Of a DNA stretch of 41,047 bases, positions 5,264-39,186 are shown piece by piece. The position numbers and the translations under genes are program-made. The stretch is from contig MFJM01000023.1 of assembly GCA_001779205.1 (NCBI GenBank), forward strand, positions 38,865 to 79,911. Reading direction: 5' to 3'. The notes under the pieces were generated by a model. It had not been told where the DNA came from, did not search any database, and worked only from the letters and a program-made list of their open reading frames with translations. Source of the DNA: Candidatus Gottesmanbacteria bacterium RIFCSPHIGHO2_02_FULL_39_14 (lineage in GTDB: Bacteria; Patescibacteriota; Microgenomatia; 2-02-FULL-39-11). Each line of letters begins with the position of its first letter. The first letter of the stretch is position 1.

Positions 5264-8200
5264 TTATCTAGGAAGTAGACTGTCGGGAACGAGTTGAATC
5301 AAAACAAATTTATCACTGGCCTTAATTAATTTATATTTCCTCCTGGACAAATCTGCATCCGTGGCCCGGGCATATAATTCTTTAGTCAGATCATCAAAGT
5401 TAACTGAAACATAATAATGAGCGCTCATATTAATCATTTCTTCAACAGTTTTTTCCATTATGGGCCAACCGGCACGCCTGGTTTGGTATAAAAAGGCGGT
5501 ATCACCGTTATAAGGGGCAATAACCAAAGCTTTGGCAGGAGTCATCAATTCAACCGCTTGGCCGGCAACAACTATTTCCGGATGGTTGATGTTATAAAAA
5601 TCACGGATATAATACCAGCCGAACATTTCCATGAAGATGATTAATATCAGTACCAGCGAGTAAGTTTTTAGCCGGCCGGTGAATTTTTGGGCTAAAAACT
5701 CAAGAAAAATAACCCCTTTAGCCAAATAGATGGAAATAATGGGAATGGTTAAAACCTGATAATAGTCGTGCCGGACGTTACCGGTTGCAAAAATTGTGAC
5801 ATATAAAAGCAAAGATAAACCCCAGATATGAAAAAGTAAGCCTTCTTTATCTTTTTTGGCTAAGATGCCCGAAATTAAGAGGGGAAGTCCGTAAAAACCG
5901 AGAATTAATCTGCCTAATCTGTCTGCAAACAGCCAAAAGAAAAAAGCTCCTTTAAATCGTATACCGTCACCGTTTAATAGCCAGAGATTAGCCGGGGTTC
6001 CTTCAGGATAATGACTGGCCCACCAGCGCCACCAAAGTAAGGGAAGGATAGCGAGGAGAAAAAAAACTCCAAGTTTAATAAAAGATATGAAATTAAGCGG
6101 ACGGTGCCGGAACCAAAGATAAATAAGAGGCAAAAAGAGAAAAACAGCGTAGGGTTTGACAAGAAGAGCGCTGAGGGTAAAAACAAAGGAAATTAAAAAT
6201 AATAATATTTTTTTAACTCCCCTTTCGCCCTGCCAACGGTCAAAGAAATAAATCATGCCGCTAGTGGTAAAAACCAGGAAAGGTTCCGGTAAAATTACCC
6301 GGCTAAAGAAAATATTAAACGGCAAAACGGCAAAAAAGAAGGCGGTAAGAGCGGCGGCGAGACGACCGCAATACTTTCTGACTAGCAAAAAGAGGAAAAT
6401 CAGCGATCCTAGAGAGGCTAAGACGGAGGTTAACCTGCCTTTCATTTCCAGATTGTATCCAATCAAAACCTGATCAATAAAAAAATGAGCCAAGTTATAA
6501 AGAGGAAATTCAACAAATCTTAATCCACGGGGATTGTCACGACCGGAAGCGACGTTAGAAAGATCATCATAGGTTGGAAAGAGGATATTTATTCCATGTT
6601 TAACATAATTTCTCGTAACGCTCGCGGTGTCTGACTGACGCCAGGAATGCCAATCTGCCAAAGGAGTGTTGATTTTATAAGTTCTTAGAAAATAGGCCAA
6701 AATTATTATAAGCAGGAGATAAAAAAAATCGCCTTTTATAAAAGACAGAGAGCGGGATTTAATTAATTTTAAGGTTTTGCCAATATCAGCAAGATGCGGT
6801 TTAGGGATTTCTGCCTGATATTTATCTTTTAAGATTTTGACAGTTGAAAGAGAGATTCCGGTAAGCGCCCAGAAAGTAAAGGCAACTTTGGAAGATTCAA
6901 AAACATCGATATAGACGGCGTTGACTAAAAGTCCAAAAAGCAACCCAGCAAAACCGGCAATAAAGCTAAAGATAAGAGGATCCTTTATTATGGCCAGATT
7001 TCTCCAAAGATAATAGAGAATGAAGAAAAGAGTGCCGTAAAAGGCAATAAAACCTAAAAGGCCGGTTTCTCCCAGGGCTCTTAAAAAATCATTATCTGTC
7101 GATTCAGCCTCTGTAAAATCCATGAGATTTTTTTTATTGAGTGTTGAATAACCGCTACCCAAGAGCGGATTTTTCATAAATCCATTAATAGCCTGCGGCC
7201 AGAGCGCATCTAATCTAATGGCGGTTGACAAATCATACCTGAAAGCGGTTTGGGAATAGGTTCTGGGTACGGCAGCAAGAGTTCCTTCTTTAGTAATCAT
7301 TAAGGGTAGATCCTGATAAACGTCGGAGGGTCTGGCTAACTTAGGAGGCTGATCGCTTTTGGAGGTAATTCTATCTAAAATATCAGGATTATTTTCCAGA
7401 AAGTAAGCCCTATCTTTGGGAGGATTACCGATAGGCGAGGTAAGTAGCATTTTAATTCCTGTCAATCGTTGATCAATTTTAAAAAACTTGGTAAAGCGTT
7501 CAGACAAATCTCCGAATGACAACATGACGATGATTGACAAGAAACTAACCAGCAAAAAACGGGAGGTTGACCAGAATATTCCTTTTTCATAAGCCCAGAA
7601 AAAGAACATAAAGAGCAATCCGAAAATATAAGCAATGAAGGAAGTGCGGGAGGCTGTCAGAATTAGTGTCCAGAAGGCCATAGCAATTACCAGAAAGATT
7701 AGAATTTTAAGGTAGATTTTTCTGATAGCGAAGAATAAACTCCAGAGAATAACTTCCGACATCATGATAAAGGCTGCCAGATCGTAATGTCCGCCGAAGG
7801 TTGATAAAACCCTGGCATGTTCTGTCAGATAAAGTTGCCAGCCTTTGGCAAATTCCCGGTTCATAGTAGAATAGGCCGGCCAATAAAGATATTTCTGTCC
7901 GAAACCGTACAGAGAGACTAAAACTACAGTGATAATTAAAAGCAAAAGGTAAGCTTTAATTTGTTTTAAACTCCTGATACTGGAATAGAAAATAAAAAAC
8001 AAAGAAAAGTATTCTAAACGGCGGAAAAGATGCAATAAGGCTTTCTGAATATGGATGGTTTCCAAAGGTATCGTTTTGATAATAAAGATGGCTGACAATA
8101 GAGACATAAAACCGATCAGCAGATAGATAGCGATGGGACGCAATAAGGGATTGGATGAAAGGGTAATCTTTTTCCTGAAGAGATTAATAACGAAGATTGC

Positions 8201-8362
8201 CAGGCAGAGCGAAACAATAATATCTTCCAGCCTGATACGGACATTATAGCCTGGCAAAACGTCCATTAGTGGCAGTTTGGGATATAAAGGGATAAAGACT
8301 AAAATAAAACCGGCGAATACGGGTAAAAGGTGGTCATCCAACCACCTTAATAGCTTGTGCAT
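5264..8362 (-). CDS. Fusion protein: N-terminal O-antigen ligase/polymerase-like (Wzy_C) + C-terminal GT39/ArnT-like glycosyltransferase
   Basis: 1032 aa. N-half: many TMs and NGFMKNPLLGSGYSTL...STDNDFLRALGETGLLGFIAFYG (Wzy_C-type signature). C-half: YFLRTYKINTPLADWHSWRQSDTASVTRNY followed by TM repeats (PMT_2/GT39-like). Confidence 0.8.
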   Translation of the reverse strand: MHKLLRWLDDHLLPVFAGFILVFIPLYPKLPLMDVLPGYNVRIRLEDIIVSLCLAIFVINLFRKKITLSSNPLLRPIAIYLLIGFMSLLSAIFIIKTIPLETIHIQKALLHLFRRLEYFSLFFIFYSSIRSLKQIKAYLLLLIITVVLVSLYGFGQKYLYWPAYSTMNREFAKGWQLYLTEHARVLSTFGGHYDLAAFIMMSEVILWSLFFAIRKIYLKILIFLVIAMAFWTLILTASRTSFIAYIFGLLFMFFFWAYEKGIFWSTSRFLLVSFLSIIVMLSFGDLSERFTKFFKIDQRLTGIKMLLTSPIGNPPKDRAYFLENNPDILDRITSKSDQPPKLARPSDVYQDLPLMITKEGTLAAVPRTYSQTAFRYDLSTAIRLDALWPQAINGFMKNPLLGSGYSTLNKKNLMDFTEAESTDNDFLRALGETGLLGFIAFYGTLFFILYYLWRNLAIIKDPLIFSFIAGFAGLLFGLLVNAVYIDVFESSKVAFTFWALTGISLSTVKILKDKYQAEIPKPHLADIGKTLKLIKSRSLSFIKGDFFYLLLIIILAYFLRTYKINTPLADWHSWRQSDTASVTRNYVKHGINILFPTYDDLSNVASGRDNPRGLRFVEFPLYNLAHFFIDQVLIGYNLEMKGRLTSVLASLGSLIFLFLLVRKYCGRLAAALTAFFFAVLPFNIFFSRVILPEPFLVFTTSGMIYFFDRWQGERGVKKILLFLISFVFTLSALLVKPYAVFLFLPLIYLWFRHRPLNFISFIKLGVFFLLAILPLLWWRWWASHYPEGTPANLWLLNGDGIRFKGAFFFWLFADRLGRLILGFYGLPLLISGILAKKDKEGLLFHIWGLSLLLYVTIFATGNVRHDYYQVLTIPIISIYLAKGVIFLEFLAQKFTGRLKTYSLVLILIIFMEMFGWYYIRDFYNINHPEIVVAGQAVELMTPAKALVIAPYNGDTAFLYQTRRAGWPIMEKTVEEMINMSAHYYVSVNFDDLTKELYARATDADLSRRKYKLIKASDKFVLIQLVPDSLLPR

Positions 8363-9248
8363 ATAATTTAAGCACGGGAAACCTACCGATTATACCAAAA
8401 AGAATTAAGCGCAGCAAAGCGCCGGTTTTTAATAAAAGCCTGACCGGACTGAGCAAGCGGGGAAAATGTTTTTGATAAAAGTAGATAACTGATTTAAATT
8501 CCTCAACAATGGCAGTACCGGGGGATTCTGCCGAACCGCCTTTGAAATGGATAACTTCAGCTTGCGGATAATAATAAATTAAAAAATTTGCCCGCCGGAT
8601 GCGGAAACACCATTCAACCTCCTCACCATACATAAAAATATTTTCATCGAGAAGGCCTGACAGATCAGCAATTTTCCGCCGAAACAGAAGAGCAGCTCCG
8701 GACACCCAATCCACCTCCTGCATTTGCCTATAAAAAAAAGCGTGTCGGGCATGATAAGGCTTAATTAATTTGGATAAAAAGGGCAAATCATCCAAAAAGA
8801 ACATCCAGAAAAAAATCTTTGACAAATAAGGAGTAAAACCCGCCGACTGTTGCAGACTTTGGTCAGGATTAAGCAATTTGGGGCCGACAACGGCTATCCG
8901 AGAATCACTTTTCATCTGGTTAATAAGTCCTGACAGAACATTAGTACCAATCAGGGTATCGCTATTTAAGAGAAAAATAAATTCGGCTTTAGATTTTTTA
9001 ATGGCTAAATTATTAGCCTTAGCAAAACCGAGATTTTTTTTATTTATAAAGAGATTAACTTGAGGGAAATATTTTTTAATAGTAGCAACGCTTTGATCTT
9101 TAGAATCGTTATCAACAACGGTAACTTTGGTATGGTAAGTCAATCCCTCATTTTTTATAGCGGAATAAAGTGAATTGAGACAGTTCTTGAGGAGGAAGGC
9201 GGTATTATAATTAATGACGACGACTTCCAAAAGATCAGGATAAGCCAT
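8334..9248 (-). CDS. Glycosyltransferase family 2
   Basis: 304 aa; VVINYNTAFLLKNCLNSL, VVDNDSKDQSV, NLGFAKANNLAI, LLNSDTLI, MYGEEVEWCFRIRRA; overlaps the 5264..8362 ORF start by ~29 bp. Confidence 0.9.
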   Translation of the reverse strand: MAYPDLLEVVVINYNTAFLLKNCLNSLYSAIKNEGLTYHTKVTVVDNDSKDQSVATIKKYFPQVNLFINKKNLGFAKANNLAIKKSKAEFIFLLNSDTLIGTNVLSGLINQMKSDSRIAVVGPKLLNPDQSLQQSAGFTPYLSKIFFWMFFLDDLPFLSKLIKPYHARHAFFYRQMQEVDWVSGAALLFRRKIADLSGLLDENIFMYGEEVEWCFRIRRANFLIYYYPQAEVIHFKGGSAESPGTAIVEEFKSVIYFYQKHFPRLLSPVRLLLKTGALLRLILFGIIGRFPVLKLYAQAIKVVG

Positions 9249-9254
9249 AATTTT

Positions 9255-9857
9255 TTACTGGAATAATCTAGCCCTGCCAAGGCGGTAATGGGGGTTTTTG
9301 ATTTTTCTGACGCCAATTATTTTAGCCGGAATTCCGGCAACTATGGCAAAGGCGGGCACATCTTTGGTGACAACAGCTCCCGCAGCCACTACTGCTCCCC
9401 TGCCGATGGTTGTTCCAGGAAGAATAATAGCTCTGGGACCGATAAAAACATAATCTTCTATTTTTACCGGAGAAGTGGCAGCCCGAAAATCCTGACTATG
9501 AATGTCATGCTGGGAATTGTATATCAAAACTTGAGAAGCAATATCCACATGATCTCCAATTGTCAACGGCTTTCGTCCGTCAAGAAAAGCATGATCACCG
9601 ATAATGGTATCCTGACCGATAGTTATTCCATGTGGATCAAAAAAATTACACCACAGATGAATTACTGATCCGCGGCCGATATTTATACCTGATAGTCTGT
9701 AAAATAAAAGCCTGAAGTAGTGACTGGGAATGTGACCAACCCATCTTAACAACATCAGTTTAAAATCCAAAAAAATAGCCTGAAGGCGATTTACTATTTT
9801 TTGAAAAGCTTCTCTAAGGGTTAAAGGGTGACCCATCCGATCGACAAAAATTGTCAT
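9255..9857 (-). CDS. Left-handed beta-helix (hexapeptide repeat) acyltransferase, sugar O-acetyltransferase-like
   Basis: 200 aa; hexapeptide repeats [15 protein letters not shown]...[11 protein letters not shown]...[40 protein letters not shown] catalytic-His region. Confidence 0.9.
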
Positions 9858-16371: not shown

Positions 16372-18453
16372 TTAATTCACCCTTTTTAACAAAACAGCTT
16401 CCCCTTTTTGGATTTCAATACGGAAACTACCTTCCACTAATAAATCTTCGACCAGATTTTTAGTTTTTTCCAGATTTAAGGGTGCAAATTTATTGGGTCC
16501 GTCATGGAAATCAACGGCGATATATTGAGCATTCTTTATTTCCGGCAGGAGGTAAATTTCCTTCCTTTGGGATAAATGCGGAAAAAGACTGTTTTGGGTG
16601 GCGACAGCGGGATTTTCCGGGACGAATCCGACGAGACTGTCGGCATTTTTCATCCATTCTTCCTTCCGGTAGAGTGAGTGCTTGAAAACCGAATGGATCG
16701 GAGCAGTGAAAATAATATCCTGAAAAATGGTTGCGGAAATAAGCAGAAGGGAGGCGAAAGTTATAATTTTTAATCTTTTTCGGGGATATAATTTTATTAA
16801 TCTGACTACGGCAAAAAGAGAAGCTACCGGAAAGAGAATCGCAATCGGAGCCGCGTGATGATTGACATTTTGCCAGACGGTGAACTGCGGACCGGAGTAT
16901 AAAAAACGCATCAGAAACTGCTCAATTGAGGGAATTAGAACAGACAAGGGAGAGAGCAAGGGCAGATAGGCAAAAGAAGAAAGTGAAGACATTAATGTCC
17001 GGATTTTTTCCCGGGGCGAAAAAACGGATTTAACCATAAACATCGGATCTTTGATAAGCAAAGCTATAAATTCAGCCGGGGTTTTGGCATTACCTGATAA
17101 ATGAGCATGCTGGTAAATCCCCTTTTCGGAAATAGCCGGCATAAAGAATTCAGTCAAAAAAAAGAAAAATGCTACGCAAACAACTAAGAGAATTATGGCC
17201 GGTTTTTTTCTTTTATAAAAAAAATAAAGCGGGAATGAAAGGGCGGCGGCTAAGAGGCTGAATTCTTCTTTGGTAATCAAAAGGCCTATTATGGATAACA
17301 ATAACAGCTTATTTTTTTCTTTTTTTGCGGCAGCATAGAAAAAAAGAGCCAAAAATAAAGGTATAATTGTTGCTTCATGAAATTCATTTAAGATACTCCA
17401 TTGAGTGCCGAGGAAAAACAAATAGGAGAAAACCAGTGAAAAAGAAAAAAAACTGTGTCTGATTTCAGCTTTGGCCAATAAGTAAAGAGGATAAGCTGAT
17501 GCTACAACCAAAAAGGCTTGAGAAATTAGAAGCATATCAGGATGTGACCAAATCCTGTAGAAAAGAGCATAAACTAGAAGGATGGGAGAGAAATGATTGG
17601 CCAGAAAGTTCACGAAGTTGAGGGTGCTGAAGGGATATTCCAGCCGGCTTAATTTCCAGATTATCTGGTCAAAATAGCCCAGATCCCAGCCGAAGGTCAG
17701 GAAATGATGGTGAGAGGAAACGGCAATAAAAGCGTAAATAATAAAGATTATAAATAGAAATACTGAAAGAAAAATCAGATCCCAGCTCAGACTGTGATGC
17801 TTAAAAAGAGTAGTTACGGCAGCCACACTATCCGCGACGGTCAATTTCTTACCGGCCAAATGATTCCTGCCCTGATAAGATATCGGAACTTCGACTATGG
17901 GGATTTTAGCTTTGACAAGTTTAACGGTAATTTCCGGCTCAAAGTCAAAACGGGAAGATTTAATCTCCATTTTTTTAACGAAAACGGACGGCAGAAGTTT
18001 ATAACCGCATTCCATGTCTGAAAGTTTTGTTCGGTATAAAAAATTGGTTATAAAAGTCAGCAGTTTATTACCCAGTCGGTAAAAAAAGGGCATTTTTACC
18101 TTGGTTTTCGAGAAGCGGTTGCCGTAAACGGCGTTTTTTCCGTTAGCTTTTTTTAATAGGGCGGGAATATCATCCGGATTATATTCTAGATCGGCATCCT
18201 GAATCAGAAGATAATCGCCGGTTGAATTTTTGATGCCTTGGGTTACAGCATAACCTTTGCCTTTATTTTTCCGGTAAGAAATAAGTTTAAGACCGGGAAA
18301 TTTTTTTATTATGCTGAGCGATTTATCAGTGGAACCGTCATTAACGACAATAATTTCTTTTTTCCAGGAAATATTAAGATGCAGCAGTTTCTCTAAAACA
18401 AAAGATATGGTTTTTTCTTCATTAAAGACGGGGATAATAATTGAAAGTTTCAT
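16372..18453 (-). CDS. Fusion: polyprenyl-phosphate (DPM1/DPG-like) GT2 domain + C-terminal DUF2079 membrane domain
   Basis: 693 aa. N-term LSIIIPVFNEEKTISFVLEKLL...VVNDGSTDKS...LIQDADLEYNPDDI...YGNRFS...DMECGYKLLPS; C-term HHHFLTFGWDLGYFDQIIWKLSR...NFLANHFSPILLVYALFYRIW...LFFLGTQWSILNEFHEATIIPLFLALFFY (DUF2079-type). Confidence 0.85.
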   Translation of the reverse strand: MKLSIIIPVFNEEKTISFVLEKLLHLNISWKKEIIVVNDGSTDKSLSIIKKFPGLKLISYRKNKGKGYAVTQGIKNSTGDYLLIQDADLEYNPDDIPALLKKANGKNAVYGNRFSKTKVKMPFFYRLGNKLLTFITNFLYRTKLSDMECGYKLLPSVFVKKMEIKSSRFDFEPEITVKLVKAKIPIVEVPISYQGRNHLAGKKLTVADSVAAVTTLFKHHSLSWDLIFLSVFLFIIFIIYAFIAVSSHHHFLTFGWDLGYFDQIIWKLSRLEYPFSTLNFVNFLANHFSPILLVYALFYRIWSHPDMLLISQAFLVVASAYPLYLLAKAEIRHSFFSFSLVFSYLFFLGTQWSILNEFHEATIIPLFLALFFYAAAKKEKNKLLLLSIIGLLITKEEFSLLAAALSFPLYFFYKRKKPAIILLVVCVAFFFFLTEFFMPAISEKGIYQHAHLSGNAKTPAEFIALLIKDPMFMVKSVFSPREKIRTLMSSLSSFAYLPLLSPLSVLIPSIEQFLMRFLYSGPQFTVWQNVNHHAAPIAILFPVASLFAVVRLIKLYPRKRLKIITFASLLLISATIFQDIIFTAPIHSVFKHSLYRKEEWMKNADSLVGFVPENPAVATQNSLFPHLSQRKEIYLLPEIKNAQYIAVDFHDGPNKFAPLNLEKTKNLVEDLLVEGSFRIEIQKGEAVLLKRVN

Positions 18454-19529: not shown

Positions 19530-20339
19530 TTAACTTATAAATTTTCTTTTAATTTTTTTAATAGGAGTAATTAAAAAGGCTAAAAGATAATAAATGAAGG
19601 TTCTGTTCGACTTGACATCAGGAATAATTGACGGTCGGCTTTTGAAAAATATCTCAGGAATTTCGCGGTTAGGAATTAGACTGCCAAGTTCAATTTTATA
19701 CTTTTGGCGGTTGAGCACATCGAATAAAAATCTTCCTTTGGCTGATCTTTGAAGATACATGGCATGAAATATTCTTTCTTCAATAAAGGCAAAGCGGTCT
19801 TTAACATTTTCTTTTATCGACCGGCCGTTTTGAGCAAAATATTCAGCCGGATATTCGCCTTTTACCTGCAATTTTGGAAAATGATTCTTATTAATTAGCC
19901 TCAATACATAATGACCGATTCTACCAAACTGATGGTAAATACCGACTGACTCGTCCTGGCAATGATAAATATCTCCAAGAAGGTCGTAGCGGTGAATTAT
20001 TATTCCGTCTAAATCCGGGCGGCTACGGATGACAGAGATTACTTTTTCAGCGGTTTTTGTAGGATAGACCTCATCCGCATCAACAATCCACAGCCATCCT
20101 TTTTTGATCATTTCAGCCTGTTCCTGGCGATAGGCAGTGAGAAGTTCCGGAGTGGCCTGTTTTTTCGGCCGGAAAATAATTTTGGGACTTTTAAAGATTT
20201 TGATGATTTCTATGGTTTTATCGGTCGACCCCGTGTCAAAAATAATAAATCTATCTACATAAGACAAAATCGAGGAAATTGAATACCAAACAAAGCGGTC
20301 TTCATTTTTAACAATCATGCAGGCGGTTATTTCATCCAT
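19530..20339 (-). CDS. Glycosyltransferase family 2
   Basis: 269 aa; EITACMIVKNEDRFVWYSISSIL, IFDTGSTDKTIEI, WLWIVDADEVYPT. Confidence 0.85.
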   Translation of the reverse strand: MDEITACMIVKNEDRFVWYSISSILSYVDRFIIFDTGSTDKTIEIIKIFKSPKIIFRPKKQATPELLTAYRQEQAEMIKKGWLWIVDADEVYPTKTAEKVISVIRSRPDLDGIIIHRYDLLGDIYHCQDESVGIYHQFGRIGHYVLRLINKNHFPKLQVKGEYPAEYFAQNGRSIKENVKDRFAFIEERIFHAMYLQRSAKGRFLFDVLNRQKYKIELGSLIPNREIPEIFFKSRPSIIPDVKSNRTFIYYLLAFLITPIKKIKRKFIS

Positions 20340-21612
20340 GTTTCAGATAATAAAATGTAAATAATGAAGAACTTATCACAGTAAATCCGTAGGCAAGAGT
20401 TAAGGTAAAGACAGGCCCTAAACGTCCGTAGTGAGGAATGAAATAAAGATTGCCGAAAAAGATAATCAGAAGTGATACTATCGTGTTAAAAGCAGATATC
20501 TGCGGTTTTTTGGCAACATAGAGAAGGAAATTGACACTGGGAATTGTGGAAACAAAAAGGGCCGCGGGCAAAAGAAGAGCGCGAAAGACCGGGATTGATT
20601 GATAATAGTTATCTCCGAGAATGAAAGGAACAAAAACGGGAGCGACAATATACATAAAAACCATAGTTAACAGAATTAGAAAAACTCCCAGAATAACTTT
20701 TTTGAGGTAGGGGATGGATTTTCCGATGGTGGGAAAAGACGAAAGACGCGGAGCTATAACCATGCTGAAACTGCCAGAGAGGAGAATATAAGTAAAAATT
20801 ATTTTATAGGCAGCAGAATATATGCCGGCTTCGTATGTTGATGATAAAGGAATTAGCATCAGAGCATCAAATCTGGAGGAAACAGCAGAAAAAACCCTGG
20901 CAAAGGCGATAAATGTTGAATATGACAGGAGTTTTTTCAATAAGGATAAACTGAATTTATCGCCAATAATTGAGAGACGTAGAAAATTTAGTCCCAATAA
21001 AATAGCAGCCAAGGGAGCAACAACAAATGAAGCTGTTACCAATTCCAGAGAAAAGCGGCCGGAATAAAACAAAAGAAGAACAAGAAGAAGTTTTACCAGG
21101 GTAGAAGAACTGCTAACAAGAACAACAGGCAAAAATCTTTTTTGGGCCGATAATGCTGCGGAGATAAAAGCGGCTATAACTGTTGTCAAAACGCCTATTC
21201 CGGCAAGAACATACAGAGATGAGAATGAAGCGGATTGGAGCAAAATTTCGGATAGGAACGGAGATAAGATAATGATAAAAATAACCATTGCCAAGGAAAT
21301 ATATAACTGGAACTTAAAGGTGTTATTTATGAAAAAATCAGCATGGGCTTCTCCTTCTTTTCTTTTAATTTCCGGATAAAAGCGGGATAAGGAAGTAGTT
21401 ATTCCCAGATCCAGGACATCGCCTGCCAATAAAATAAAAGCCGTGATTGATGAAAAGACGCCCAAATTGTCCGGTGAAAATGCACGGGCCAGAAAAATGG
21501 TGTATAGAAATGCTAAAAAAGAGGTAAAAATATTTCCGGAAAAGATCAGATACGTATCTTTAGCAGTGTCAGAGGTTAAGGAATGGGTTAAAAGTCTTAG
21601 AAATTTTCGCAT
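20332..21612 (-). CDS. Wzx-like polysaccharide flippase (MATE/MOP superfamily)
   Basis: 426 aa, ~12 TMs; IFSGNIFTSFLAFLYTIFLARAFSPDNLGVFSSITAF N-terminus; YEAGIYSAAYKIIFTYILLSGSF. Paralogous to 27708..28991. Confidence 0.88.
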   Translation of the reverse strand: MRKFLRLLTHSLTSDTAKDTYLIFSGNIFTSFLAFLYTIFLARAFSPDNLGVFSSITAFILLAGDVLDLGITTSLSRFYPEIKRKEGEAHADFFINNTFKFQLYISLAMVIFIIILSPFLSEILLQSASFSSLYVLAGIGVLTTVIAAFISAALSAQKRFLPVVLVSSSSTLVKLLLVLLLFYSGRFSLELVTASFVVAPLAAILLGLNFLRLSIIGDKFSLSLLKKLLSYSTFIAFARVFSAVSSRFDALMLIPLSSTYEAGIYSAAYKIIFTYILLSGSFSMVIAPRLSSFPTIGKSIPYLKKVILGVFLILLTMVFMYIVAPVFVPFILGDNYYQSIPVFRALLLPAALFVSTIPSVNFLLYVAKKPQISAFNTIVSLLIIFFGNLYFIPHYGRLGPVFTLTLAYGFTVISSSLFTFYYLKHG

Positions 21613-21678: not shown

Positions 21679-23298
21679 ATGCCGTCAATACTTTACTATA
21701 TCAGCTTTTTATTCCCGATCCTTTATAAGTATTCCTATGTTATTACCAATCAATATACCCAAATCCCTATCATACTTTCCTATATGAATCGGGAATATTT
21801 GCTAAACGACTGGTATGTGAATTTAGGCAGAGATTTCGGTCCGAGAACAATATTTGCCGTTTATTCGGCATTTTGGGGGAAACTAATAGGCTTGCCGATT
21901 ACTTATTTTGTCCATTATCTTTTAACCGGCGGTATTTTTATATTAGCTACCTACCGGATGGCACTTTTATTATTCAAAAACCGGAAAGCAGCAATTCTCA
22001 CGGCCATAACGATATTATTTGGAGCAACTTATTCAATTGGAGGAAATTTACTTATTACTTCAGATTTTACCGTGACTCAACTGTCTCTATCAATAAGTTT
22101 GTTGGCAATAGTTCTGATACTTGAGGAAAGATATTTTTTGTCATCAATATTATTTGCTGTTTCTTCATACTTTCACCCGCAAATCGGACCTGAATCAGCT
22201 CTTCTTGCCTATTTCTCTACTGCTTTAACATTTATTTTGACTGATCGAAAAATTTTAAACAAAAAAATGGCAGTCTTAATTAAGAAAGCAATCTTACCCT
22301 ATTTAATTTTTGTTATGCCTTTATTAATTTTCTATTTGAAAAGCAGCCAGGCGGAAATTTCAACCTCTCTTAAAATCAATATAATAGCTTTTGTAAGAAC
22401 TCCGCATCACTTTCTGCCTGCCTATTTTCCTTTAAGCCATTATTTAGCTTTTTTTATTGTCTTAATTTGCGGTTTTATAATATTAAGGAAATTGAGGGAA
22501 AATAAAAATTCAGAATTGTATCTGTTCATTTCTTTTTTTACTTTATTTACTTTTTTTATTACCGTCATCTCACTGACTGCACTTTACAGTAAAACATTTT
22601 ATCCTTTGGTAATATTGCAGCCGTTTCGACTGACAGTCTATATCTATTGGTTTATGGCCTTAACAGTAATTGGCGCAATATTTCTGGCAATTTTGAAAAA
22701 TAAAATTCAGCCCGTTTTTTCTTTTGTACCCCTGTTTCTGTCGGATTATTCACGCTTAATTCAATTTAACAAAGTAAACACGGCAGCAATAATATTAGGT
22801 TTAATTATCGTCTTTTATTTTAAGAAAATTCCTTTCAAAGCATTAACGGTCTTAATTTTGATTTTCTTTTCACTTTTCCATTTCCACGAAAAATTCAATT
22901 ACGGTTCGTATTATCAGCATCCGGTTCCGGAGGTGGAATTAGCTCAATGGGCTAAGAATAATACAACAAAAAACGATATTTTTTTAATCCCTCCGGAATT
23001 TGAAAAATTCCGATTGATTTCAGAAAGGCCGGTTGTAGCTGACTGGAAAAGCTTTCCCTTTCAGGAAAAAGGATATTATGAATGGTATTTAAGAATGTGT
23101 GACTTAGGAAATCAAAGCGTATGCGACAGTAAAAACTTAAGTCAGGATAAAGTTACTAGCGGTTTTCGGACACATACTCTTCAATCTTTGGTAGATCTTG
23201 GAAGAAAATATCAGGCAAAATATGCAGTTTCTGAGGTTGATTATCCGGAGCTTAAGAAATTATATAGCAATTTTTACCAAGTTTATATGCTTCCATGA
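21679..23298 (+). CDS. Multi-pass membrane protein, GT-C-like, with C-terminal non-membrane domain (IPPEFEKFRLISERPVVADWKSFPF...CX7C)
   Basis: 539 aa; repeated hydrophobic segments; C-terminal ~120 aa hydrophilic domain; a frameshifted paralogue lies at 24046..25667. Confidence 0.8.
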   Translation: MPSILYYISFLFPILYKYSYVITNQYTQIPIILSYMNREYLLNDWYVNLGRDFGPRTIFAVYSAFWGKLIGLPITYFVHYLLTGGIFILATYRMALLLFKNRKAAILTAITILFGATYSIGGNLLITSDFTVTQLSLSISLLAIVLILEERYFLSSILFAVSSYFHPQIGPESALLAYFSTALTFILTDRKILNKKMAVLIKKAILPYLIFVMPLLIFYLKSSQAEISTSLKINIIAFVRTPHHFLPAYFPLSHYLAFFIVLICGFIILRKLRENKNSELYLFISFFTLFTFFITVISLTALYSKTFYPLVILQPFRLTVYIYWFMALTVIGAIFLAILKNKIQPVFSFVPLFLSDYSRLIQFNKVNTAAIILGLIIVFYFKKIPFKALTVLILIFFSLFHFHEKFNYGSYYQHPVPEVELAQWAKNNTTKNDIFLIPPEFEKFRLISERPVVADWKSFPFQEKGYYEWYLRMCDLGNQSVCDSKNLSQDKVTSGFRTHTLQSLVDLGRKYQAKYAVSEVDYPELKKLYSNFYQVYMLP

Positions 23299-24045: not shown

Positions 24046-25667
24046 ATGTGGTTAGTCTTAGGATTTTTTAGCGCTTATTTTTCCATTTATTTATAAATAT
24101 TCTTACGTAGTTAATAATCAATATGAGCATATTCCGATTATTCTCTCGCATCTATACCGATCCTACCTCTTAAATGACTGGTATGTAAATGTTAGCCGAA
24201 ATTTCGGTCCGCGGACATTTTTTGCTTATTATATGGCAAAAACTGCGCAATTTATGACAATACCGGGTACATTTTTTTTCCACTATGTAATATATATTTT
24301 CCTTGTAAGTATCGCTACTTTCCGACTCAGCCATTTTTTTTCCGCAATAATTATATTTTACTTTTAACTGTAATTACGGTTCTGTTTGGCTCAACAATTG
24401 CTTTGGGAGGGGATTATTTGATAACCCGCGATTTTTATGCGTCTCAACTGCCATTGGGACTATTACTCTTTGGTATCGTACAGCTTTTGGATAATAAATA
24501 TTTCCTTTCTGCCTTATGTTTTTCTTTTGCTTCTTATCTTCATCCTCAAGTCGGAATAATCGGAGGATCAATTGCATTTTCAGCCTATTTTGTAAGTACT
24601 GATAAAACCGAAGCTATCCGGTTGGTTAAATCTTTTATGTTTTATGCAGTAATAATCTTACCTCTCTATATTCTTTATAAAAACGAAATTGATCCCGTCT
24701 TTTAAAAATTAACCAGAATAGACTGATTGGCATTGTAGTTTATATGCGGGGACCGCACCATTTTCTTCCTTCCAGCTGGCTAATGGCGCATTATTTGTGG
24801 TTTGTTTCCATGCTGATTTTATTTTGTTTTTTCCTCTTCCGACAATTTAAGATAAATAAAAGCAAAGCTTTGTACTTATTTACTTTAACAACAATTATTA
24901 TTTTCCTCTGTATAATTGGATTTATCGGGACTGAATTATTTCCAATTTATCAGATAACCATCTTACAATTTTACCGATTCACCGTTCTTATTTACTGGAT
25001 ATCAGCTGTTTTAATTTATGGAACTATCTTTAATATGGTCATCAACAATAATTCAAATATAATTCTTCTTTTACTTCCGCTGTTCCTCCCCATAATCCGC
25101 AATATTCAGTTTAATAAAGTATATCTGACCTCCATTATTATTTTATTTTTTCTAATGATTTTTTCCAGAAAATTACCTAAGTATCTTTTTATCTTGATTC
25201 TTATTCTTGGCTTTGGTTTGCAGCACTATCATGAAAGATTAAATATTAATTCCATTATCGGTCATCCTACAACCGAAAGCACTTTAGCATTATGGGTAAA
25301 AAACAATACTCCGAATAATAGTATTATCTTAAGTCCGCCTGATTTTGAAAAATTCCGGGTAGTATCTGAACGGGCGATTGTTGTTGACAGAAAATCGTTT
25401 CCTTTTGAAAAATATGCCATGCTCCAGTGGGCTAAAAGAATTTGCGACATAGCAAACCAACCGCAATGTAATTACCGGCATATGAATCTTTCTATTGCGG
25501 TGGATGGATATAATAACCTGACGCTTGAAGATCTGGAAAAACTTCAAAAAAAATATGCTTTTAATTACTTTGTAGGGCGCAATTTATTACCGATAAAAGC
25601 TGATTATGCTGACAGCGGCTATTATATTTATAAGTTGCCCAAAGCAGAGAATAATGGTGAGGGATGA
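24046..25667 (+). pseudogene. Frameshifted paralogue of the 21679..23298 membrane protein (three frame changes)
   Basis: Conceptual translation across frames aligns by eye with 21679..23298: IFPFIYKYSYVVNNQYEHIPIILSHLYRSYLLNDWYVNVSRNFGPRTFFAYY; RNNYILLLTVITVLFGSTIALGGDYLITRDF; LKINQNRLIGIVVYMRGPHHFLP; PPDFEKFRVVSERAIVVDRKSFPFEKYAMLQWAKRICDIANQPQC. Frame changes fall at T6 (24064-24069), T8 (24334-24341) and T4A5 (24700-24708). Confidence 0.85.
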
Positions 25668-26631: not shown

Positions 26632-27732
26632 TCAAAGAGTTCCTATCGGACCGGTATTTTTAAGAATTATCCAATGGGTTTGGGATAGGAAGGTTAACCC
26701 GCGCCAAGTAAGAAGAAAATAAACAATAAGAGCTGATATCAAAATTTTGGGATTAACAGAAAATATTTCAGCAAATACAAGACATACAGCGAAAAGAGAA
26801 ACAGTCAAATAAAATGAAGACATATGATTGGGAAGAAAGAAAAATGGCAAAGCTGCCATAAAAAACCAAAGCAGAGAAAAAATAAATAAACGGTAATTTA
26901 TTTTCCGGGATTTAATATAATAAAAAAAGCCATAAGCAAATAGTATTAAAAACAAAATAAATAATATAAATATAGAATAATCGGATGATCTTTTAATTCC
27001 CTCGGGGAGATTTAAAGCCCTAAATAAATACCATCTCACCAGGGGTAAAAAGGCAAATAAGCTTGTGGTGTAGGAACTGCTTTTGGGCAATCCAAAGACG
27101 GACGTTTTTAGTATAAGGTATATAATATCCAGTGATAGAAACACAGCAAAGAATTTTTTCCATTTCCGGAAATAATAAAAAGTCAAAATAAGTAGTAGAG
27201 GAAAAACAAATAAGACTTCGTTACTTAATAAAGCAGCTATATAGGAAACAGTCGATAAAATTTGGGATTTTTTTATCCATAACAGATAAAGTGAAAGAAA
27301 AATAAAAAAATTGCCCAAGACAAAATAAGAAACGGCAATCCAATAGTAGTTGGCGAACAATGAGACGTTAAAGGCATAAAAAAATACGACAGTATGAGCT
27401 TTTAAATCATTATTTAATATTTTTTGGCTCAAACGGAAAATCAGGTATAACGAGAGAGATGAGATGAAAAATAATATAAGATGAAAACCGAGAGGATTAA
27501 GCCCAAAAATCATTCTTCCGACTGAATAAAATAACTGGAAAGAAAGCGGGCGGTAAATCCCTTGAGGAAGTGCGGTGAAAAAATCAGAAATTTTGGGAGA
27601 GGTGAGAAAAATAATGTCATCCTGAAAAAAGGGGGCAGTAAATGACGGCCAATAGATAAGTATTGTCAGAAGAATAATTGAAATGAATATTAACAAATTT
27701 CTTTTATTCAAATAATTTTCTTTTTTTGCCAA
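26632..27732 (-). CDS. Multi-pass membrane protein, GT-C/GT39-like
   Basis: 366 aa; IYWPSFTAPFFQDDIIFL (early acidic pair in the first loop), GIYRPLSFQLFYSVGRMIFGLNPLGFHLI; many TMs; predicted start codon is TTG, overlapping the upstream gene by 25 bp. Confidence 0.65.
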   Translation of the reverse strand: MAKKENYLNKRNLLIFISIILLTILIYWPSFTAPFFQDDIIFLTSPKISDFFTALPQGIYRPLSFQLFYSVGRMIFGLNPLGFHLILFFISSLSLYLIFRLSQKILNNDLKAHTVVFFYAFNVSLFANYYWIAVSYFVLGNFFIFLSLYLLWIKKSQILSTVSYIAALLSNEVLFVFPLLLILTFYYFRKWKKFFAVFLSLDIIYLILKTSVFGLPKSSSYTTSLFAFLPLVRWYLFRALNLPEGIKRSSDYSIFILFILFLILFAYGFFYYIKSRKINYRLFIFSLLWFFMAALPFFFLPNHMSSFYLTVSLFAVCLVFAEIFSVNPKILISALIVYFLLTWRGLTFLSQTHWIILKNTGPIGTL

Positions 27733-28991
27733 TAATAAAAAATCATCAGGGTGGTGGACACACCTGTTAATCCAAAAGCCAGAATCAGGGATATAGCCGG
27801 ACCGAGGCGACCATAAATGGGAATAAAAATCAAATTACCCAGAACCACAATTGCCAGTTGAATCACACTGTTAACGGTAAGAATAAACGGCTTTTTAAAA
27901 TAATAAATGGCTACCGATACTGCCGGAACCGATCCAACGAAAAAGATCATCGACAATAGAAGGAGACGAAAAACCGGCACCGCAGGATCCGTCTTTTCAC
28001 CGAACAGAATAATCATAAAAGGACGGGCCATCATGATCATGAACAAGATAGTACTGATCAGTCCCAAAGTTGCAAAAATAATTTTCCTGAGATATTTTTT
28101 TAATTCGTAAAGGTCGGTAATAACAGCAATCTTTGGAGCGATAACAGTCAAAAAACTGCCAGACAAGAGCGGATAAATGGAAATGACCCTGGAGGCTGTT
28201 GAATAAATTCCGGCTTCGGTGGCATTTTTGATCGAAACCAACATCAAAACATCCAACCTATAGGCAATTGACGTGAACATACGGGCAATCCCCAGAAGAT
28301 AGGCAAAGCGCAACAATTTTTTAACATCAGCCACCTTGGACTTATAATTTAGAAAATCAAAATTAATAAATAATAAAGTAACCAAGAGAAGAATAGCTAA
28401 AGATAATGTCTGAGTGAGGACAGAATTATCAAGAGTAATGGCAGTAATAACCAGTATTATCAGAAGTAATATCAACCTTAATAAGCCACCGAAAGCAGTC
28501 AGGAAGGAAACAGTCAGGAACTTATATCTTGCGGAAAGACTGTAATTGATAAAATTTACCAATATAGCACAGAAAATACCGACAGCGGTCAGGATGACCA
28601 AATTATTAAAGTTTGGCGAATGAAATAGAATCAGGGAAAGTTTTTTTGACAGAATAATAATTAACAAAGATACCAGGAGAGAGATGACAATCTGAGTGGC
28701 AAAAGCAGCTTTTAAAAAACTCTTTAATTTTTCCTGACGATCTTCCAAAGGCGGTAAAAAAGACGATAATGATTGACCTATACCAATATCAGAAAGTTCG
28801 CTGGTTAAGATCATCAGAGATAAAAGGGCGGAAAAATAACCAAAATCGGCAAACGTCAAATTGCGGACTAAGATAACAGTAAATAAAAAAGAGAAAAAAG
28901 CCGATAGAACATTACCCAGAAAGACAGTGTAAGTATTACGGGCTGTAGGAGAAAAAAATAAAGTCTTTAATAATCTAATTTTTGATTTCAT
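27708..28991 (-). CDS. Wzx-like polysaccharide flippase (MATE/MOP superfamily), second copy
   Basis: 427 aa; VFLGNVLSAFFSFLFTVILVRNLTFADFGYFSALLSL; ATEAGIYSTASRVISIYPLLSGSFLTVIAPKI, clearly similar to 20332..21612. Confidence 0.88.
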   Translation of the reverse strand: MKSKIRLLKTLFFSPTARNTYTVFLGNVLSAFFSFLFTVILVRNLTFADFGYFSALLSLMILTSELSDIGIGQSLSSFLPPLEDRQEKLKSFLKAAFATQIVISLLVSLLIIILSKKLSLILFHSPNFNNLVILTAVGIFCAILVNFINYSLSARYKFLTVSFLTAFGGLLRLILLLIILVITAITLDNSVLTQTLSLAILLLVTLLFINFDFLNYKSKVADVKKLLRFAYLLGIARMFTSIAYRLDVLMLVSIKNATEAGIYSTASRVISIYPLLSGSFLTVIAPKIAVITDLYELKKYLRKIIFATLGLISTILFMIMMARPFMIILFGEKTDPAVPVFRLLLLSMIFFVGSVPAVSVAIYYFKKPFILTVNSVIQLAIVVLGNLIFIPIYGRLGPAISLILAFGLTGVSTTLMIFYYWQKKKII

Positions 28992-35208: not shown

Positions 35209-36527
35209 TTACTTTTTGATTTCCCGATTAAACCTTCTTTAAAAGCCGTATATCTGCTATTTATCTGCCTCAAGTATATTTTACTGTCATCATTAAGGTA
35301 ATAAGCCTGTTGTTTTAAGATTTTCCTTTTTATCAAACCCAAAAAACCGATCAACCAATACCAACCGGTATTGGGCTCTGAGATATTTTTAAACTTCATC
35401 CTGTTCTGAAATCTATTTATCGGTTTGTCATTTAAATATATTTTTCTGATACAATCCATCAGACTAATTATCGGATCAGAATTGACAAAAAATTTACGGA
35501 TTGCCCAGGATTTAAGAAGTTTTGGTTCTTCAAGGTGTATTTCCCGGCATAAATTTAAAAAATGAGATTGTGTTTTAATTTTTTTAACTAATTTATACCA
35601 TGGAGCAATTAAGGCATTCGGCAGTTTATATGGTTCCAGCATAAAGGTCGGCCTGTCGGCAATGGAAGCTTCGATAAGACTGGTGGAAAAAGATGAAACC
35701 ACCATGTTGCTAGCCAAAATCCATTCCCTGACGGAATAGTCTTTAATGATATTTAATTTGGATGTAATTCCCGGCGATAATTTTTCCAATACGGATGTGA
35801 AATAGGCAGCACTTATGGCAGGCCTGGGACGCAATATTATTTCAACGTTATTAAATTTATCACCGGCTGTCTGTAACCATTTAAGTACTTCGAATATGGC
35901 TTTGCCACAGTAGTTTCTCATAATTAATGCCGTCTTTCTGTCCTGGCCATTCTTGATAATTTCCTCAAACTGATGGTCGGAATAAAAAAACCAGCTGTAA
36001 TTTTCAGGGAAAAAAATCCATTTTTTCTTAGGATCCAGATTAAACTTCTTAGATAAATCAAGGCGATTTTTGAAGATTTTATTATACGGTTTTTTATAAA
36101 GCTTATAAGCCGGATGACCGTTAATAATTATATTTTCCCTAGGAATTCCCCTTTTTTGAAGGAATTCACTTCTTTCCCTGCTCCAGCAGTGGTGCAAAAC
36201 TTGCTCTTTAGCAAACCAATCCTGGGGCGCTTTGTATTCCAGATTGGCTTTATAAAATATCTGTTCCCAAGCCATGTTGAAATAAATTACATCAGGAAAT
36301 TTAAGAAGAATTTTTTTCAGCATCCGATCATTGACGGAATAACAATAGGGAAGGATTATAATTTTGGGATGGAAATCTTTTAAATATACCGGAGGAAGAT
36401 CGGATGTAAAAGGCAAAATAGTAATTTTCTGCCCGAATTTTTTTTTAAATAAAACTGAAACAGCACAGGCAACATCCAATTCCCGCGAAATATGCTCGAT
36501 AAACCAGATGATATTCCCCTTTTTCAT
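35205..36527 (-). CDS. GT-B-like surface carbohydrate biosynthesis protein
   Basis: 440 aa; INGHPAYKLYKKPYN, VEIILRPRP, REWILASNMVVSSFSTSLIEASIADRPTFMLEPY (CDP-glycerol transferase / epimerase-like C-terminal donor-site pattern). Confidence 0.55.
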   Translation of the reverse strand: MKKGNIIWFIEHISRELDVACAVSVLFKKKFGQKITILPFTSDLPPVYLKDFHPKIIILPYCYSVNDRMLKKILLKFPDVIYFNMAWEQIFYKANLEYKAPQDWFAKEQVLHHCWSRERSEFLQKRGIPRENIIINGHPAYKLYKKPYNKIFKNRLDLSKKFNLDPKKKWIFFPENYSWFFYSDHQFEEIIKNGQDRKTALIMRNYCGKAIFEVLKWLQTAGDKFNNVEIILRPRPAISAAYFTSVLEKLSPGITSKLNIIKDYSVREWILASNMVVSSFSTSLIEASIADRPTFMLEPYKLPNALIAPWYKLVKKIKTQSHFLNLCREIHLEEPKLLKSWAIRKFFVNSDPIISLMDCIRKIYLNDKPINRFQNRMKFKNISEPNTGWYWLIGFLGLIKRKILKQQAYYLNDDSKIYLRQINSRYTAFKEGLIGKSKSK

Positions 36528-38443
36528 TTTAAGAGGTCAATAACTGAAGAAATGATATTGGCGCTGTCCATACCTATTTTTCTTAAAAATTCTGAACGGA
36601 AACCTGTTTCCGGAAATGAGTTAAGTGAAATTACTTTTATCAGTTTAAACTCAATTTTATTTAGATTCAAAAATGAAAGTAGGGATTCAGCCATACCACC
36701 TTTAACGAAATGATCTTCAATGATTAAAAGAGGTAAACCGCGAAGGGAGGCTTTTTTAAGATCATCCTTATCAAAATCGACCAGCCAGGGATAATTCCAG
36801 ACTTCTACCTGAATGCCCCTTTTGGAAAGTTCATCTGTTGCTAAAAGTATTTCTCCCAAAACTACCGGACCAATACCGATTGCTAAGGCATTTTTTCCGG
36901 GACGAATTTTATGGGGAAAACCTTTTTTGAGAAAAACAGGAGGAGCCGGTAATTCTATGGCCGACCTAGACATAGAAAGACGCAGGTAGAGTATATTTCC
37001 AAGAGCCCCGCGAAAGTATCTTGAAATGATATTTTGAACATCAAGGCCGGAAACAGGCTGATACATTACTATTCCAGGAATATTTTTCATGCAGGCAATA
37101 TCCCGGAAAGCCTGATGTGATTTACCGGGAGTGGCCGGAATAACACCCGACATATTGCCTACAATAAGTGCTTTGGCATTTTCGCTAGCAAGATTATAGA
37201 GCTGTTCATTAGCCCGAGAAGTCAGGAAAGCAGCATAGGTGCTAAGTACCGGTAAATAACCTAAGCGGGAAAAAGATACCGCTACTGACACCATATTCTG
37301 TTCCATTATGCCCATTTCAAAAAATCTTTGAGGATATTTTTGATGAAATGGAATAAATCCGCAATCTTCTTCCAAATCAGCATCAAAAACCACAATGTTT
37401 TCATAAATTCCAGCCGAATCTAATAATCCTTTGGCAAAACCGGCAGTTAAACTGTCTCCTTTAATCCCCTGCTCTATAGGCTCTATAGGAATATTTTTAA
37501 AAGATTGATTTAAATCCCAACTAAATCCTAATCTTTGCAGAGGTTTTTTGATACGTGAGAATATTTCATTGAAGGCAAGCTCTAACTGGTCCTTATGCGG
37601 AGACTTATTATGCCAGATATACTTGTCAGAAGTTTTCCTTAATATACGAGTGTGTTCCATGAATGAAATACCCTGACCTTTTAGGGAGTGGGAATAAAAA
37701 ATTTTTGGTCTTCCCTTTTTCTTTTTTAATTCTGAAAAAATCTGCCTGATCTTTGATATTTTTCTGCCATCCCCTTCTATAATTTCAAAACCCATATTTT
37801 TCCAGGCAGAAATCAGATCACCGTAGAAAACAATATTTGAAGTTAACTGATCAGTCTGAACTTTATTATCATCAATAATTATGAATAAATTATCCAATCT
37901 ATTACTGCCTGCGCTTAAGAATGCTTCCCAGCACTGTCCCTCCTGTAGTTCCCCATCACCGACAATAACAATAACATTGCCTCCCTGCTTGAACCTTTTT
38001 TTTGCCAGGGCGAAACCTACTGCTTTGGATAAACCGATGGCCAATGAGCCGGTATTGGCTTGGATACCGGGGGTTTCTATATCACAGTGGCCGGCCAACC
38101 CACCTAACCTTCTTAACTTATTTAACATTTCCGTTTCAAAATAACCCTTAGCAGCCAGAACGGCATAAAGAGCAGGAGCTGCATGGCCTTTGGAGAGGAT
38201 AAAAATATCACGGTTTTTAGGTTCTTTTGTTTTTGGATCAAATTTAAAAGAACGGAAATAAATTTCAGTCAGCAGTTCGACAATAGAAAGAGAGGCACCT
38301 AAATGTCCGGTACCGGCTCGGGCAACGGACAAGAGAGTATTAAAACGGATCAAATCGGCAATAAGAGGAAGATTAGTGGGATTTTTTGCCAACTGATTAA
38401 AAACTTCATATTTTATATAGCCAAGATTAGTTAATAAGTTCAT
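36524..38443 (-). CDS. tkt: Transketolase (full length)
   Basis: 639 aa; GHLGASLSIVELLTEIYF, FILSKGHAAPALYAVLA, VIVGDGELQEGQCWEAFLSAGSNRLDNLFIIIDDNKVQTDQ (ThDP motif), PQRFFEMGIMEQNMVSVAVSFSRLGYLPVLSTYAAFL. Confidence 0.95.
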   Translation of the reverse strand: MNLLTNLGYIKYEVFNQLAKNPTNLPLIADLIRFNTLLSVARAGTGHLGASLSIVELLTEIYFRSFKFDPKTKEPKNRDIFILSKGHAAPALYAVLAAKGYFETEMLNKLRRLGGLAGHCDIETPGIQANTGSLAIGLSKAVGFALAKKRFKQGGNVIVIVGDGELQEGQCWEAFLSAGSNRLDNLFIIIDDNKVQTDQLTSNIVFYGDLISAWKNMGFEIIEGDGRKISKIRQIFSELKKKKGRPKIFYSHSLKGQGISFMEHTRILRKTSDKYIWHNKSPHKDQLELAFNEIFSRIKKPLQRLGFSWDLNQSFKNIPIEPIEQGIKGDSLTAGFAKGLLDSAGIYENIVVFDADLEEDCGFIPFHQKYPQRFFEMGIMEQNMVSVAVSFSRLGYLPVLSTYAAFLTSRANEQLYNLASENAKALIVGNMSGVIPATPGKSHQAFRDIACMKNIPGIVMYQPVSGLDVQNIISRYFRGALGNILYLRLSMSRSAIELPAPPVFLKKGFPHKIRPGKNALAIGIGPVVLGEILLATDELSKRGIQVEVWNYPWLVDFDKDDLKKASLRGLPLLIIEDHFVKGGMAESLLSFLNLNKIEFKLIKVISLNSFPETGFRSEFLRKIGMDSANIISSVIDLLK

Positions 38444-39186
38444 ATTTTAAACGGAATGATGTTAATTTGCGGTAATTTGGCTTTTCTGGTTTTAATTAAA
38501 TATTCGGCATAAATCCAGTCTTTTTTGGAATTAATATCGTAGCCTTCATAATTACTGGTAATAAAAGGGAGAATATTTTTACCTGAAATTGAAATGCTTT
38601 TAAGTGGAATTTCGGATTTAGCTATCTCAAGACTGGCATTCTGGGCGTAAACTTTCGGAAGTGCCTGGAAAGGCAGACTGTGCCATTCAATCTTTTCTTT
38701 TGTTTGGCCAGAAATAACAGGAATTAAGCGATTATTGACTATTTTCCACATTTTTGCGGGATGCTGAGATGCCAGCTCAACAGCGCGCAATGAATCAGCA
38801 GATTCTTCACTTGTAATTTTGTCCCAGGCTTTTTTTATCATCTCAACAGTTCTAAAAGGACTGGTCGGCCTGAGAATTGCAAAATATTCCGGCAGATTAT
38901 TTTTTCCAATCTTTGCCAACGTGAATTTAAGCCATTCAATATCCGGAGATACAGCTGACGCATATTTTTTAGGTCTTAAGAAAGGTATATCAGCCCCATA
39001 ATATTTGGCAATTGTGGCAATTTTTTCATTGTCAGTTGACACAATAACCCGTGAGAAAATATTAGACTTAAAGGCAACGGAAATGGTATAGGCAATCAGA
39101 GGATGACCGGCAAGAATTTTGATATTCTTATTTATTATTCTTTTGGAGCCCTGGCGGGCGGGAATTAGAGCAATGATGTTTTTCAT
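38440..39186 (-). CDS. CMP-sugar (acylneuraminate/KDO-type) cytidylyltransferase-like
   Basis: 248 aa; IIALIPARQGSKRIINKNIKILAGHPLIAYTI, RVIVSTDNEKIATIAKYYGADIPFLRP, ILRPTSPFRTVEMI. Confidence 0.9.
   Translation of the reverse strand: MKNIIALIPARQGSKRIINKNIKILAGHPLIAYTISVAFKSNIFSRVIVSTDNEKIATIAKYYGADIPFLRPKKYASAVSPDIEWLKFTLAKIGKNNLPEYFAILRPTSPFRTVEMIKKAWDKITSEESADSLRAVELASQHPAKMWKIVNNRLIPVISGQTKEKIEWHSLPFQALPKVYAQNASLEIAKSEIPLKSISISGKNILPFITSNYEGYDINSKKDWIYAEYLIKTRKAKLPQINIIPFKI

Follow-up and report, generated by a model that had tools for sequence, protein, structure and literature searches.

Background

The combination of a GT2 glycosyltransferase, a flippase and a GT-C glycosyltransferase is an established pathway, represented by the GtrA/GtrB/Gtr systems and by the polyprenyl-phosphate-ribose synthase/MATE/GT136 systems, in the latter of which a MATE protein acts as the flippase (PMC11127046). 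Proteins of the PF03706 family have also been proposed as glycosylation flippases, and such a domain forms the C-terminal part of AglD, behind a GT2 domain (PMC5898192). Among the GT-CA enzymes, ArnT, ALG6, PglB and PimE carry their catalytic Asp in the loop that follows TM1 (PMC12041525). In the open-licence literature we found neither a paper that names the family DUF2079 nor a characterised member of it.

Here we describe a protein of Candidatus Gottesmanbacteria bacterium RIFCSPHIGHO2_02_FULL_39_14 in which a GT2 domain and a DUF2079 domain share one chain. It is encoded in a surface-glycan cluster, and the whole stretch of 41,047 nucleotides that was analysed is referred to below as the window.

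The fused protein and its genomic setting

The 693-aa protein is encoded at positions 16372..18453 (- strand) of the window, in one frame with an ATG start and no internal stop. Pfam Glycos_transf_2 (PF00535) matches residues 4-153 (E 2.9e-31; 109 bits versus a cut-off of 23.3), and DUF2079 (PF09852) matches residues 249-680 (E 6.1e-49; 168 bits versus a cut-off of 28.2). The latter match extends over positions 3-451 of the 459 in the profile, i.e., over most of its length and above the curated score. The domain search recommended in the initial annotation, which had assigned GT2 and DUF2079 from the letters of the sequence, thus bore out both assignments, far over the curated cut-offs, and the two-domain observation is confirmed.

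The GT2 half (residues 1-221; 17791..18453, - strand) is a predicted cytoplasmic polyprenyl-phosphate-sugar synthase of DPMS/AglJ-like type. Its best solved relative is the dolichol-phosphate-mannose synthase of Pyrococcus furiosus (PDB 5mlz; E 4.8e-18, residues 1-202), and its DxD motif, D86-A-D88 (18190..18198, - strand), is aligned with the DAD of that enzyme, in agreement with the earlier view of the N-terminal ~220 aa as a DPM1/DPG-type synthase. The PF00535 match, the DxD motif and the nearest solved structures, which are of DPMS/ArnC/GtrB type, together point to the polyprenyl-phosphate-sugar synthase family. Among the NCBIfam models, AglJ scores best (E 3.4e-33), with 115 bits against an equivalog cut-off of 325; judged by these scores, the GT2 half is related to AglJ and is not AglJ itself. 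A scan of genome contigs with the fused protein as query yielded GT2 relatives only, and in a tblastn search of plasmids no record was covered to 80%, the rows shown being GT2 halves. Scans of viral contigs for homologues yielded two DUF2079 relatives.

The surface-glycan cluster of the window contains GT2 and GT4 glycosyltransferases, methyltransferases, two Wzx-like proteins, a Wzy_C-PMT_2 fusion and additional PMT_2 GT-C genes. The Wzy_C-PMT_2 protein (5264-8362, - strand; 1032 aa) combines a Wzy_C O-antigen ligase/polymerase domain (residues 225-441) with a PMT_2 GT-C domain (residues 637-778). This fusion recurs in the class (L167, L189-L192, L245) and is therefore a conserved architecture, unlike that of GT2-DUF2079. 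Double GT-C proteins are suggested by L186-L188, which have a length of about 810-820 aa and a tandem pair of PMT_2-like matches. Two ORFs of the window, at 24403-24705 and 24744-25667 (+ strand), look like the remains of a second, disrupted copy of the DUF6798-containing membrane protein encoded at 21679-23298. A row of genes at 36524-40655 (- strand) encodes a transketolase that unites its N and C parts in a single chain, a cytidylyltransferase (CTP_transf_3) and an aldehyde dehydrogenase, and is probably a CMP/CDP-activated sugar branch of the cluster.

GT2 partners of DUF2079 in other genomes

The survey of PF09852 took in overlapping sets of 380 (phylum), 374 (class) and 15 (order) genomes. 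Domain content was read in 60 of the phylum neighbourhoods, and the long frames of the class list were read in part. Other GT2-DUF2079 fusions, for which the initial annotation had suggested a survey, were not seen among the about 760 genomes of the surveyed phylum, and a GT2 domain occurred in the same chain in none of the 101 distinct DUF2079 proteins that were scanned besides that of the window. Within the surveyed phylum, the fusion is a singleton.

A DPMS-like GT2 gene is located directly upstream, on the same strand, of 11 of 59 DUF2079 genes, compared to 10 of 406 other genes of the same neighbourhoods (odds ratio 9, p 7e-6); five of the 11 cases come from one family and the counts are not phylogenetically independent, so that the p value is optimistic. 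Orthologues of the GT2 half of the window protein (about 55-63% identity) adjoin a PMT_2 or DUF2079 gene in 8 of 10 family genomes, in clusters where GT-C genes are abundant. A counterpart of the window is found in genome G383, of the same family, where the cluster at locus L242 is almost gene-for-gene the same. There, the GT2 (240 aa, 7563-8282) and DUF2079 (469 aa, 8298-9704) proteins are encoded by separate, adjacent genes.

In a rival reading, the GT2 half would feed a common pool of polyprenyl-phosphate-sugar for several GT-C enzymes, with DUF2079 possibly using another donor and the fusion representing a neutral read-through without channelling. The source genome contains 12 PMT_2 GT-C matches, all potential users of the same donor, and the GT2 orthologue mostly adjoins PMT_2 genes; it is kept without DUF2079 in G386 (locus L251) and in G380, G392 and G384 (no DUF2079 match at the threshold used). 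A recent singleton fusion would also be in keeping with a common pool. However, distant families likewise have GT2 genes immediately upstream of DUF2079 and the pair stays adjacent in G383, and we regard the common pool as an unlikely account of the GT2-DUF2079 relationship.

Origin of the fusion

The two genes of G383 are separated by a TGA stop, a 12-base spacer and an ATG. The corresponding stop, spacer and start region is missing from the window at the fusion junction (about residues 212-226; 17776..17820, - strand). Codons 211 to 280 of the fused ORF contain no ATG, GTG or TTG, and the DUF2079 half is therefore without an obvious start codon of its own. The two halves are equally conserved with respect to G383, with 60-61% identity, pN of about 0.26 and pS of about 0.75 in each. 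Apart from the window, a full-length search of 187 genomes of the class matched residues 1-693 at a single site, that of G383, with 60% identity and one TGA inside. In view of the adjacent genes in G383, the missing stop/start stretch and the equal conservation of the halves, the best reading of the fusion is that two neighbouring genes recently lost, in this lineage, the stop and start codons that had separated them.

An error of sequencing or assembly might also have merged two adjacent genes, in keeping with the two genes found at this place in G383; the source assembly comprises 72 contigs (1.4 Mb, completeness 85.5%; sampled members of the phylum are mostly 0.6-1.5 Mb), and a single-base error near the junction could shift the frame. 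Nevertheless, the window lacks the entire stop-spacer-start segment seen in G383 and no start codon is available to DUF2079 between codons 211 and 280, so that the change of one base would not give back two normal genes. This argues against a simple sequencing error, and we consider an artefact very unlikely.

The initial annotation had taken the fusion as a strong functional clue. Since it is a singleton within the phylum surveyed and arose by stop/start loss between genes that G383 still has separate, the fusion is a weak clue when taken alone, and the argument for the function of DUF2079 is based on convergent associations rather than on this single event.

DUF2079 as a predicted GT-C glycosyltransferase

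The DUF2079 half (residues 222-693; 16375..17790, - strand) is a predicted GT-C membrane glycosyltransferase, on the basis of the PF09852 match and of an hhalign comparison with PMT_2. The PMT_2 profile, which was built without any DUF2079 member, aligned with that of DUF2079 at 96.5% (E 9.1e-10), as opposed to 2.7% for Wzx, 0.1% for the PF03706-like domain, 3.3% for Wzy and 4.6% for GT2, which served as negative controls. The match spans only about 160 columns, from TM1 to about TM5, and the C-terminal part is unaligned with PMT_2. A few DUF2079 proteins are also matched directly by the PMT_2 profile. Values of 99% obtained with GT83-like and 30096-like profiles were discarded, as both profiles had absorbed DUF2079 sequences.

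Examination of the aligned residues shows that the Asp of the DUF2079 "DLG" motif sits on the Asp of the PMT_2 "DE" motif after TM1, a position that corresponds to that of the catalytic Asp in the solved GT-CA enzymes (PMC12041525). In the window protein this residue is D257 (17683..17685, - strand), the predicted catalytic base, which is invariant in the aligned DUF2079 proteins (99/99) and lies shortly behind the first hydrophobic segment of the DUF2079 half (228-241). E396, of the K/R-E motif (17266..17268, - strand), is an equally invariant Glu (99/99). H287 (17593..17595, - strand), which falls within the part of the alignment that contains the PMT_2 "HPP" stretch, is conserved in 97 of 99 proteins, and Q312 and H359 in 95 of 99 each. 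DUF2079 thus combines homology to an accepted GT-C family with an acidic residue that is conserved in the loop behind TM1.

AlphaFold2 models were poor, with a pLDDT of 47.5 for the full protein and 46.4 for the DUF2079 half, owing to the few homologues (L104, L105, L132, L134) in the alignment. The best Foldseek match of the latter model was an OST complex structure, with a non-significant E value of 0.86. HMM searches of PDB sequences returned nothing up to E 10 for the DUF2079 alignment and nothing for the PMT_2 alignment. From the profile and residue comparisons, we infer a GT-C fold for DUF2079.

An N-terminal PF03706-like (UPF0104) domain was identified in 26 of the 101 distinct DUF2079 proteins, roughly one in four, and in six of these 26 a GT2 gene is located directly upstream. 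The set was recognised by a profile built from one representative, which itself has a Pfam E value of 1.6e-7 over nearly the whole profile, 2 bits below the cut-off; another protein tested had no Pfam match there. The fusions are mostly about 780-820 aa in length (L034-L036, L041, L045, L047, L106, L109-L114, L117, L118, L121, L127-L131, L197-L199). One of them (L045, 1102 aa) contains an extra C-terminal alpha/beta-hydrolase domain, and L129 and L130 come close to it in length. Together with the GT2 fusion of the window, these proteins indicate that DUF2079 has been merged with each of the other parts of a GT2/flippase/GT-C pathway. Where a GT2 gene precedes the PF03706-like-DUF2079 gene, a three-part pathway is predicted to be encoded in two genes.

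That DUF2079 is instead a flippase or another transporter for the GT2 product, as might be thought of a multi-helix membrane protein beside or fused to a donor synthase, a position also known for flippases of the GtrA and PF03706 types (AglD, for example, joins GT2 to PF03706; PMC5898192), is highly improbable in the face of its PMT_2 transferase homology with the catalytic-type Asp aligned, its invariant Asp/Glu pair and its occurrence in the same polypeptide as a PF03706-like domain, the predicted flippase, next to which it would be redundant in such a role. DUF2079 is, with high probability on the present sequence evidence, a GT-C transferase that uses a lipid-linked sugar. The initial prediction of a polyprenyl-phosphate-sugar-dependent GT-C enzyme is accordingly supported by the PMT_2 homology, the invariant D257 and E396, the upstream GT2 genes and the flippase-like fusions, and less by the GT2 fusion that had inspired it. 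Pfam may already include DUF2079 in its GT-C clan, in which case the GT-C part would be expected and the added value would lie in the partner evidence.

A proposed pathway

We consider it likely that the fused protein unites two enzymes that act one after the other in a single pathway of extracytoplasmic glycosylation, a GT2 donor maker and a DUF2079 GT-C transferase, which became joined by stop/start loss. At the cytoplasmic face, the GT2 domain, for which family, fold relative and DxD motif were observed, would load polyprenyl phosphate with a sugar taken from a nucleotide sugar; the activity and the sugar are predicted. A separate flippase would then carry the polyprenyl-phosphate-sugar to the outer leaflet. 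The Wzx/MATE-type proteins of the cluster are candidates for this role, i.e., a Wzx-like (MOP/MATE-type) polysaccharide transporter at 20332..21612 (- strand; Pfam Polysacc_synt, E 1.5e-19) and a second Wzx-like copy at 27708-28991, related to Wzx-profile genes of other genomes. PF03706 had no match in the source genome at the threshold used. A GtrA domain is found once in each of 10 sampled family relatives of the source genome, elsewhere, in a frame of 380-410 aa.

The DUF2079 domain, according to its predicted topology, would bind the lipid-linked sugar at an extracytoplasmic site. D257, in what would be the first extracytoplasmic loop, may act as the base that deprotonates the acceptor hydroxyl, as its homology and invariance suggest, and the sugar would be passed to a surface glycan or another acceptor, putatively one made by this glycan cluster. 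The GT-C half may use the product of its own GT2. The earlier description of the protein as making and using its donor in one chain skips a step, since the donor must first cross the membrane from the cytoplasmic GT2 to an extracytoplasmic GT-C site, and the chain includes no flippase.

A broader proposal, for which we see the chances as evenly balanced, is that DUF2079 represents a widespread GT-C family that performs the last step of three-component pathways. It would have been merged with the donor maker in the window protein and with a predicted flippase in roughly one in four of those examined, the whole pathway being contained in two genes in some lineages, and the fused chain would hand its own donor, via the flippase, to its own transferase site. 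With the partner genes, both types of fusion and the invariant catalytic-type Asp, a "predicted membrane protein" can be given a specific enzymatic role as a testable hypothesis, for which the natural fusion, the split pair of G383 and the two-gene cassettes are handy test objects.

Comparison with known systems

The GT2 half can be aligned over nearly its full length, including the DAD motif, with the dolichol-phosphate-mannose synthases (P. furiosus DPMS, 5mlz, and haloarchaeal AglJ). Unlike these enzymes, the fused protein is devoid of C-terminal GtrA-type helices and contains a GT-C-like domain in their place. DUF2079 resembles the PMT_2/ArnT-type GT-C transferases (PF13231) in the homology of the profiles along the first 160 or so columns, in the Asp after TM1 and in its GT2 neighbours, whereas it has motifs of its own (DLGxxDQ, HxxP, DFH and K/R-E), a Pfam family of its own and a C-terminal half that is unaligned with them.

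As in AglD, a GT2-PF03706 fusion (PMC5898192), a GT2 donor maker shares its chain with a membrane-embedded partner that serves the same pathway; the partner is a predicted flippase in AglD and a predicted transferase in the window protein. In the PF03706-like-DUF2079 fusions of the same phylum, DUF2079 is likewise joined at its N-terminus to a pathway partner, which is a predicted flippase in those proteins as opposed to GT2 in the window protein. Like the three-component systems (PMC11127046), in which a GT-C enzyme acts on surface glycans together with a flippase and a polyprenyl-phosphate-sugar synthase (a GT2 enzyme in the case of Gtr), the locus is part of a surface-glycan cluster with Wzx-like proteins, and donor synthase and predicted GT-C enzyme are encoded together, in the same chain in the window and by adjacent genes in G383. 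In contrast to those systems, the GT-C component of the window is a DUF2079 domain fused to the synthase, and for the flippase there are candidate proteins in the cluster.
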